From Albula goreensis (taxonomy: Eukaryota > Chordata > Actinopteri > Albuliformes > Albulidae), in NCBI GenBank assembly GCA_022829145.1, contig CM040764.1, positions 12,172,049 to 12,236,048 of the forward strand: a stretch of 64,000 bases of DNA. Reading direction: 5' to 3'. The notes under the pieces are model-generated. The model was not told the origin of the DNA, ran no database searches, and saw nothing but the letters and a program-made list of their open reading frames with translations. Positions within the stretch are counted from its first letter, which is position 1. The number at the start of each line of letters is the position of its first letter. Shown here piece after piece: positions 52,601 to 55,600 of the stretch. The translations under genes and the position numbers were made by a program.

Positions 52601-55600
52601 TCCGGCTGGCGCACAGCGCTTTCCCCCACGCTCATCCTACCTCTGATGAGGGAGCCGATGCCGAGTCTGTTCACAAAGACATTGTCCAGCTCCTCGCTCC
52701 CGGTGAACAGCTCAGCCACCGCATACAGCTCCGGCCTCACAGCACGGGCTGCGTCCAGCATGAACTACAGTTAGCAGCGCAGGTGTGTGAGCGGAAGCCA
52801 GACAGTGCGGGGTTAAACCAGGAGGAAGAGGAAGTGGGATCACCAGGCAGAAGCCAATGAGTGGGTGAGCATGCAGGAAGAGGGAGGAGTATACAAGCAC
52901 CAACACCATGCCGAGAATCCATAAATACACACAAAAATAAAGTGCCGGGGAATGTGAAAATCACAAAGTGATTAAATTGACAGTGAAGTTTAAAAAGCAA
53001 ATGAATTCAAATAGCATATACAGAAGAATTGCATTCAATACAAACACAATATACAAACACAAAGGGTCAGAATGACAGAACCGAGAATGTAGAATCATTT
53101 AGGAATGGACAATCGATGTACAGATTAATGACAGTGAGTGGTAGAAGGTGTGGGGGGGTTGGGGGTGTCAAGGACAGAATTTTAAGCAAATTGAAGGGGC
53201 AAAGGAGATGGGGAGGAAAAAAAAGACAAACACAAGATTCAGCATCATGCCAGGACTTGTGCTTCCACGCCGTGCTTCCCACAGTCACTGTGGTCCAGTA
53301 CCTCTGATAAGACTGGTTATTCCCAGGCAGTTTACAAAGACATTGTCAACCAGCTCATTGCCAGTAAAGAGCTCAGCTATCACGTACAGATTGGGCCTGA
53401 CTGCCCTGGCTGTGGCAAGCATCTCCTACGGAGTGCAACAAGGGTCACAGTAAGTATGGCTCACCCTGAGATACAAGCAGCTGCCATTACACAGCACACA
53501 GCTCTCAAACTGCCTGCTACATACACACAGCTAACATCCTAACAGCCCCAAACACTCATATTCAACACAGAAATTTCCAATAATTAATTGTAAAAAAAAA
53601 AAAAACAAAATGCACTTATATGTCATAATATTAATGAATCAGTGAGTTGCTTTGGAAATAATGGTTAATAAAAATAATGAATAAATAACAATAATAAATC
53701 AATGAATAAATAATCAGACAAATACAAATGATCTAAAATTCACTTTTCTAATACTTGAAATGGCTCTAACATGACTTTGACTGAATGGTGGCTGAATCTC
53801 AGTTTAGTAACAGTATTCCAGGCAGCCGGGATGATGTAAGCCCTCTAATATGTGTGCGTTTGCCTATTTTTAGCTGCAGCATTTAAGGGTGAGGTTGTGA
53901 AAGTCCATACTGGGTTCCTAATGTCATCTGTACATGCACATGTGTCACTCTTTACAGACTCTTTTCAATATTTTATACCTGTTAGAGTTGTGCAAAAAAC
54001 CTCATAGGACTGAGGTGAATAAACAGCAAGACTCTTTATCTCCACATATAAAAGATATGGGTTTAGTCACATGAACTTCTGAACTCATACTTCAAATTAT
54101 TGGTTGGTGAGTGATGAGATATATGCTGCAGATATAGCAAAATGTCTTTTTTTTTAAACTGTACAACAAAAAACAGAAAATGGGTGGATGATAGGATGAT
54201 AGTATGTTTTATAGACGTTAATACACAATAAAATGGATAATGAAAGTGCGGGGGTACCTCGGCCACATGGAGAGGGGTGGAGTGGCAGTTGTCCAGACGC
54301 ACTCCACTGAAGTGCTTGGCTGTGATCTCTGTATACTTCTTCATGTGGGCCCACAGGTATGGACAATCCGCTGGCTTGTTACCATAACGAAGCTTCACAC
54401 TGTCGCCCCAGCAGACCAGCTCCCGCCTGAGGTAGACATTGGAACCTGGGAGTGGTGTTGGTATGGACCAGTTAACACTGAACTTGTGCCAATTTTGGCT
54501 TTAGAAGCAAGGCAGGTACCACACAGAAAATCATTGATTCATCTGCCCTATGGTGCCATCTTGTGGTGATAATGCGGCATTACAACTGCTTTAGATTTTC
54601 ATTGTTTTGTGGTTGTGACTAATTGGCACCTGCAGCCACAGCTGATGCCAATTCAGTCAATGACTCTGATTCAGTAATTAAGCCACTCTGAAGCATAGAA
54701 CCCTGAGTGACTTGGGGCAGACACCACTAACTTAAAAAGTATTTTTCACAAACTGCTTAAAGGTTGTTGTACAAACTCAAAATTAATGATGTCAAATGCA
54801 ACTACTGTAATTGCCCACATTTTAAGTTAACTAAGTGTATACACACTAATTCTATGTTTTTCACATACCTTCCCTTTCAATACTGTAGTCATGTCCTATT
54901 CAGAATCTGATAGTAATGCAGCTGGCATAGTTAAAACAGTAGCTTACATACAGTGCAGGCAAAATGATGCCATTGCATGATCTATGCTTTCATTTTTGTA
55001 TTGTTAAATGCATATACTTGATTTACATGCACTGTGCTGAATATTGTACACATGTGCTTCCCTGCATTACAATTCAGCATTAACTCAGTCCTTAAGAGAG
55101 CTGATCAGTTGCTCCAGTTCACTAATAACAACAGAACAGAGCTGTAGTGATTTTGTAAAGGTAGGCTGCCTAGTTGGCCCTGTTTGGTAAATGAAAGAGA
55201 GGGGATACCTGGCTCGGCGAAGTTGCGCAGGGGGTCGTCCCCCATAACCCAGCCGTTGTGGGCAAGGAAGTGACACGCTTTTTCAGCATCATGCATCAGC
55301 AGCTGCTCCTCATCCAGGGTCATCTCCTCAAATGGGAAGGTGAAATACCTGGATGGAATAAAACATATTCAATTACATATTTCCAGCCTAAAAAGATCTG
55401 TGGTCTTTACGGAAGTCTTGGCTTTTCAAATATAAAATAAATACTGAAAATGGAAACATATGATTTCAAATTTACAGTGCAATAAACTGTGAAAATGGAT
55501 GACTTCAAGCTTTTAAAGCTTGCAGCTAAAATCCAAGAATGCACACACCTTGTTACCAAAGGGTCTTTTCTGGTTATGGGGCCCGTCTTGGGTCCATGGT

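Follow-up and report, generated by a model that had tools for sequence, protein, structure and literature searches.

The agl locus of Albula goreensis

The window analysed here is a stretch of 64,000 nucleotides of Albula goreensis DNA, and about 20 kb of it is occupied, on the minus strand, by agl, the gene for the glycogen debranching enzyme. Its exon map was drawn by tblastn, with a human AGL sequence as the query, together with a search for splice sites. The following features of the gene are needed for what comes below, including the two alternative exons that we call E1 and E2.

43044..62638, minus strand: agl (glycogen debranching enzyme), start to stop codon, from tblastn and the splice-site search
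54258..54445, minus strand: constitutive exon preceding the E1/E2 pair
53302..53425, minus strand: E1, upstream alternative catalytic exon, with the acid/base Glu codon at 53372-53374
52641..52764, minus strand: E2, downstream catalytic exon, with the acid/base Glu codon at 52711-52713
51674..51835, minus strand: constitutive exon following the E1/E2 pair, with a frame break about 55-70 bases in
50031..50154, minus strand: constitutive exon with a second frame break

The gene is co-linear with AGL along its full length. It has 34 coding exons with both copies counted and 33 if one of them is used (32 constitutive exons plus one of the E1/E2 pair); 33 coding exons are also given for a human AGL transcript in the part of PMC4739001 drawn on here. 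Among the proteins fetched, that of Conger conger is the best match to the agl of the window (82% over the first 536 residues). Relative to Megalops AGL and to the human sequence, two constitutive exons contain one frame break each. Outside these two breaks the coding sequence is open over about 1500 codons and bounded by GT-AG sites, with one GC-AG. The GC donor (CAG/GCATGT, the slash marking the exon end) belongs to the exon ending at 55918, whose start is uncertain, and the rest of agl is GT-AG. Because of the first downstream break (in 51674-51835), the E1-only and E2-only readings, as assembled, both stop 88 codons past the preceding exon; owing to these breaks neither isoform is full-length in the assembly. 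Sequencing error and a decaying copy are both possible causes.

Several other features of the window were recorded. Telomere-like repeats (CCCTAACCCTAACCCTAAC) lie in the acceptor region of the third agl exon, at 60639-60678. Open frames at 6249-7175 (minus strand) have, by eye, the look of an olfactomedin domain. On the plus strand, cysteine-rich open frames at 27362-36591 resemble by eye what are presumably the thrombospondin type 1 repeats and spacer of an ADAMTS-like protein, and open frames at 39834-41128 resemble by eye the reelin-domain start of an FRRS1-like gene, which we take to be a neighbour of AGL in mammals too.

Two catalytic exons at one position

An earlier note on this DNA had described E1 and E2 as tandem duplicates of a single catalytic exon, and its account of their layout was borne out. 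Each exon is 124 bp long at the coordinates listed, enters in phase 0 and leaves in phase 1, is open and is flanked by GT-AG sites. A recount again gave 30 of 41 residues shared between the products, and in both the Glu of AELFTG stands 29 residues beyond the Asp of the preceding exon when counted on the sequence. We take this Glu to be the acid/base residue of the transferase site, and the Asp (codon 54291-54293, in exon 54258-54445) to be its nucleophile. The note had further held that the frame is lost when both exons or neither are used, and early stops were indeed found in both joins: 58 codons past the preceding exon when E1 is joined to E2, and at codon 2 when the preceding exon is joined directly to the following one. 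A cysteine at position 33, which it had listed among the differences between the copies, is present here and is a local oddity, as 117 of the 121 segments with Ile at residue 16 have Arg at that position. The E1 of the window also has Asn at position 23, where Ser is found in 120 of these 121 segments.

At the nucleotide level the copies are identical at 85 of 124 positions, with 10, 7 and 22 differences at codon positions 1, 2 and 3, respectively. Their similarity is confined to the exons and ends at the exon borders (131 bp, 70%), which is the pattern of an old duplication. E2 is the type present in solved debranching enzymes. Across sequences, E1 mostly has Glu or Ala at residue 1 and Ile at residue 16, against Tyr or Phe and Val in E2; at residues 25-26, in the loop that follows the acid/base Glu, it has mostly Leu-Ile, against Glu-Leu in E2.

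Both copies in the window appear to have been held by purifying selection, as judged from substitution rates and simulations on the window copies and from protein conservation in relatives. Between E1 and E2, dN is 0.259 and dS 1.266, giving a dN/dS of 0.20 (NG86). When neutral evolution was simulated to equal DNA divergence (2 x 20,000 runs, starting from each copy), none of the 40,000 simulated copies kept 30 of 41 residues. As 53-54% of them stayed open, openness alone is weak evidence.

E1 and E2 types in other vertebrates

Related proteins were collected with a joined-protein query, its words drawn around E1 (889 proteins matched, 120 listed), with a turtle E1 query (172 matched, 120 listed) and with a short wallaby piece (28 matched, all listed). 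The protein database is clustered at 90%, and one cluster may hide both isoforms or whole groups; the wallaby cluster (P0124), for example, has 695 members. Among the matches listed, E1-type segments occur in non-teleost fish (Lepisosteus, Polypterus, Polyodon, Latimeria and Protopterus), amphibians (Xenopus, Spea, Rana, Ascaphus, Mixophyes and Ambystoma), reptiles (Gopherus, Alligator, Crotalus, Podarcis, Rhineura and Varanus), the wallaby Notamacropus and many teleosts. No shark, lamprey, bird or placental mammal is named among the E1 matches listed, where clusters at 90% may hide whole groups, and a gar protein query gave no match in the prokaryotic and viral DNA collections. A duplication that is recent or confined to fishes is ruled out by the presence of E1 in tetrapods, coelacanth, gar and Polypterus.

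Classed by residue 16 alone, the 134 proteins fetched comprise 115 with E1 only, 11 with E2 only, six with both and two others; these counts are not frequencies, because the queries were of E1 type, and a few invertebrate-looking proteins also have Ile16. The acid/base Glu is kept in all 121 Ile16 segments and in all 17 Val16 segments. Both copies stand in one model in Rhineura, Varanus and Pangasius djambal, and also in the fragments P0137-P0140; in three of the six two-copy proteins the second copy is cut short at its start. Some automatic gene models fuse both copies.

Mean identity is 0.906 among E1 segments, 0.802 among E2 segments and 0.743 between the types (20 E1 and 13 E2 sequences, chosen by hand). 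The E1 of the window agrees with that of Megalops at 37 of 41 residues; its E2 agrees with foreign E1s at up to 34 of 41 and with E2s at 36 of 41 at best, most E2s being about as close as several of these E1s. A tree of the 41 residues has near-zero, poorly supported branches. Given this tree and these close identities, the split between the types rests less on overall identity than on residues 1, 16 and 25-26. E2 shares residues 1, 4 and 16 with the fungal and the solved mammalian enzymes (species presumed), and E1 is therefore probably the derived copy, to judge by these positions. A divergent agl-like protein with an E1-like segment (AMLAAARAIKPNLYV...) was seen in two percomorphs, Lates japonicus (P0128) and Toxotes jaculatrix (P0135); its flanks are changed, with HVTE ahead of the segment and DAKDVVDHQEEGHWLSWFG or DAVGAADSQEEGRWLSWFG behind it.

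Furthermore, agl frames of 1088-1536 amino acids run without interruption in ten contigs of 4.9-7.1 kb, with E1 alone joined to both neighbours (HVAE-E1-EAMS). Eight of the contigs come from the source 'lgn' and two from 'jgi', two of 12 that were not of E1 type having been omitted; they are teleost-like and several are near-identical, and they do not stand for ten independent species. Because a gene of about 20 kb and 34 exons cannot give such frames from genomic DNA, we read them as cDNA, although they may instead be retrocopies. Many vertebrate database entries, several of them of E1 type, are named 'glycogen debranching enzyme isoform X1/X2/X3'; automatic annotation, in which E1-type entries carry such names, therefore already holds E1 isoforms.

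These comparisons bear on three further claims of the note. It had argued that E1 is no dead copy, and the dN/dS of 0.20 together with the conservation of the E1 type in relatives upholds this. The second copy that it proposed to look for in other fishes is there, both copies standing in the one Pangasius djambal model and the E1 type occurring in many fishes. It had also treated two debranching enzymes as a trait of 'the fish'; the alternative exons are supported, but the pair is an old vertebrate one, with the E1 type found across bony vertebrates.

The intron between E1 and E2

The intron that separates the two copies has an unusual structure, and the following features were marked in it.

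52765..53301, minus strand: intron between E1 and E2, 537 nt
52767..53255, minus strand: AG exclusion zone of 489 nt ahead of the E2 acceptor
53239..53245, minus strand: candidate distant branch-point adenines A53245 and A53239, off consensus
53182..53238, minus strand: displaced polypyrimidine tract, ends chosen by hand

The AG-free stretch that leads up to the acceptor is 22-111 nt long in 31 other introns of the gene (a value of 6 for exon 8, whose boundary is uncertain, is omitted). The next longest AG-free runs in the 64-kb window are 163 nt on the same strand and 152 nt on the other, which makes the run of 489 nt three times as long as the nearest other. Its composition would lead one to expect 11.9 AGs, and 20,000 shuffles never gave fewer than two; the shuffle figure overstates the case because the stretch was picked for being AG-free, a bias of which the window-wide ranking is free. 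When the splice sites of the gene were scored with a matrix of its own sites, the E2 acceptor ranked 33rd of 33, the E1 donor 31st of 33 and the E1 acceptor 30th of 33, ranks that are somewhat lowered by the omission of E1 and E2 from the training set. Pyrimidines make up 82% of the 40-nt windows that start 60 and 80 nt into the intron. Together with this pyrimidine content, the AG-free zone and the lowest-ranked E2 acceptor point to a distant branch point, one not far from the donor of E1.

The candidate adenines A53245 and A53239 lie 57 and 63 nt from the E1 donor, just ahead of the pyrimidine-rich stretch. The first full yTnAy in the intron of the window is 134 nt from this donor, and at that distance no steric block would be expected from it. 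Fragments from relatives that read through the intron give a partly different picture, in that a Leu-Thr pair, which forces yTnAC, lies at intron nucleotide 24 in six of 16 fragments and at nucleotide 30 in four; the forced motif is absent from both places in the other six, and several of the 16 are near-duplicates. Outside these positions, the same fragments contain 15 Leu-Thr pairs in about 1,550 codons. The yTnAC of the relatives is followed by a stretch rich in pyrimidine-type codons. Where both copies are read in one frame, in the Rhineura model, the intron is 101 nt long, and in four fragments it measures 242, 266, 269 and 311 nt (two gene-model rows, of 71 and 14 nt, in which the whole intron is perhaps not retained, are omitted).

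Two motif classes exceed their expected numbers in the intron of the window, GCATG with three against 0.7 and CELF-like motifs with seven against 1.4, but as the intron is T-rich and AG-free these counts are weak evidence. One GCATG, at 53246-53250 and thus 52-56 nt past the E1 donor, abuts a candidate branch point. From its position, RBFOX bound to this site may run the switch, promoting E1 and blocking E2. Competing RNA structures of the docker/selector kind were also considered as the switch and were rejected, since the one intron folded is no more stable than its shuffles (z-score -0.18).

Proposed explanation and its alternatives

We propose that agl contains, in E1 and E2, two mutually exclusive exons that arose by an ancient tandem duplication, a reading to which we give a probability of roughly 0.87. 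Mutually exclusive catalytic exons, as the note had suggested, fit best with an E1 type that is conserved and that stands alone in the intronless frames of relatives. One of the two exons would enter each working agl mRNA, and the gene would then yield two debranching enzymes that differ in a 41-residue stretch that contains the 4-alpha-glucanotransferase acid/base Glu and the loop that follows. With regard to mechanism, the E2 acceptor would be served by a distant branch point and a long pyrimidine tract close to the E1 donor, so that U1 on this donor and U2 on that branch point could not assemble together and the joining of E1 to E2 would be blocked. The donor of the preceding exon would then pick either E1 or E2, and mistakes, with both copies or neither, would be frameshifted and probably removed. 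The sequence, the phases, the selection on the copies, the conservation of E1, the E1-only frames of relatives and the AG-free zone are observed, whereas the position of the branch point, the steric block, the regulation and the functional difference are the parts of this explanation that we infer. On the layout of the intron we lean somewhat towards the steric mechanism; counting against it, the candidates at 57 and 63 nt lie just beyond the proposed limit of about 50 nt (PMC7969005, in the part drawn on here).

An explanation that does without steric hindrance would leave exclusivity to the reading frame and the decay of wrong combinations, or to protein regulators. It concerns the mechanism and would leave the exon pair itself unaffected. 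Such a scheme gains from a length of 124, which is not a multiple of three, from the early stops in both wrong combinations, from a nearest full-consensus branch point that at 134 nt is too far away for a steric block, and from the six of 16 fragments with no forced motif near the donor. It would nevertheless need some other cause for the absence of AG over 489 nt and for the great weakness of the proximal E2 acceptor, and it has to contend with the short intervening introns of relatives (101 nt, and 242, 266, 269 and 311 nt) and with the yTnAC at 24 or 30 nt in 10 of the 16 fragments. We regard it as rather unlikely, though a serious contender.

Two other readings would touch the pair itself. 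That E1 is a dead or rarely used copy surviving by chance appears very improbable: a copy neutral since the duplication would be expected to give a dN/dS of about 0.5 or more rather than 0.20, the E1 type shows high conservation from fish to wallaby, relatives have intronless agl frames with E1 as the sole copy, and the window's E1 still matches that of Megalops at 37 of 41 residues. The weak donor and acceptor of E1 (31st and 30th of 33) and, in this species, its Cys33 and Asn23, where 117 and 120 of 121 segments have Arg and Ser, would fit such a copy. The second reading takes the whole locus in the window for a decaying or non-functional agl copy, with a pair that is a relic here and functional in other species. 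Some teleosts do have two agl genes (Hypomesus P0010/P0037 and Megalops P0017/P0087, on contigs of unequal size), and frame breaks stand in two constitutive exons; however, some 1500 codons of coding sequence outside the breaks are open and keep their splice sites, and two small indels would also be expected from an imperfect long-read assembly, which makes this reading improbable.

If our preferred reading of an ancient exclusive pair is followed to its full extent, agl would have two regulated forms with different transferase active sites, kept in bony vertebrates for more than 400 million years and controlled by a distant-branch-point switch. We offer this combined view tentatively.

Function and relevance to human disease

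Because the copies differ at residue 1 and at loop positions 25-26, it is plausible that the exchange of E1 and E2 changes how the donor or the acceptor glucan is handled. The differences at residues 1, 16 and 25-26 could change which glucan stubs are moved. Since a second copy occurs from fish to marsupials, many vertebrates probably make two versions of the enzyme, and with a conserved second catalytic exon they can probably change the transferase active site by splicing, which bears on the structure of glycogen in tissues.

AGL underlies glycogen storage disease III (GSD III), and its transferase site is regarded as having a single fixed form. The solved debranching enzyme chain 8zeq, which we infer to be the human enzyme, is of E2 type in its segment 538-578; the position of the variant c.1735+1G>T matches the end of this segment, as 1735 = 3 x 578 + 1. 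In the portion of PMC6819650 used here, the E2-exon lesions c.1735+1G>T and c.1672dup are reported in GSD III patients, with muscle enzyme activities of 2% and 25%, respectively, and lesions in this exon also appear in GSD III in the portion used of PMC9282608. Since GSD III patients carry lesions of the E2 exon, human tissues need E2, and E1, if present in humans, does not fully compensate for its loss. Residual activity in patients was considered as a possible sign of E1 and set aside, the values given in that portion of PMC6819650 being 25% in a homozygote for a frameshift within the E2 exon, 30% in a homozygote for a nonsense change elsewhere and 2% with the E2 donor lesion. If placental mammals keep E1, a human disease gene would have an unrecognised coding exon, and this would bear on the reading of variants in the intron before human exon 14. 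Finally, the locus offers a short case, open to testing, in which a branch point almost 500 nt away from its exon apparently sets a splicing switch.

Comparison with known systems

No description of a choice between catalytic exons in AGL was found in the open-access PMC literature. The word AGL is absent from the main text of two human surveys (PMC5740500 and PMC9741552), of the OGDH paper (PMC7969005) and of PMC11653684. The six human AGL isoforms (Bao et al., 1997, as cited in PMC4739001), which vary between tissues, are like the agl pair a case of alternative transcripts from one gene; unlike the pair, they differ at the 5' end, and the part of PMC4739001 drawn on here names no exchange of a catalytic exon. 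Models labelled 'isoform X1/X2' by automatic annotation contain E1 forms like that described here, but these are labels only, known from their names.

Mutually exclusive duplicated exons and the distant-branch-point arrangement are both of known kinds. In TPM1 (alpha-tropomyosin), exons 2 and 3 exclude each other sterically, through a branch point near the upstream donor. This is what we propose for agl, although TPM1 encodes a structural protein and its mechanism has been experimentally tested. In a human survey, such proximity of the branch point was found in 57 of 629 exon clusters (PMC5740500, in the part drawn on here).

A close parallel in layout is offered by exons 4a and 4b of OGDH, which, in the sections of PMC7969005 used here, are mutually exclusive exons enforced by distant branch points. 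Like the agl pair, they are tandem exons in a gene for a metabolic enzyme, separated by a short intron and old in vertebrates, with an AG exclusion zone and a long pyrimidine tract that reaches back towards the donor of the upstream exon. The OGDH branch points have been mapped, at 25-41 nt from the donor in human and at 46 nt in sunfish, whereas those of agl are predictions only, which in the window fall 57-63 nt from the donor and in some relatives 24 or 30 nt from it. Finally, exons 4a and 4b of OGDH set calcium sensitivity (same source), whereas the two exons of agl each carry the catalytic residue itself.
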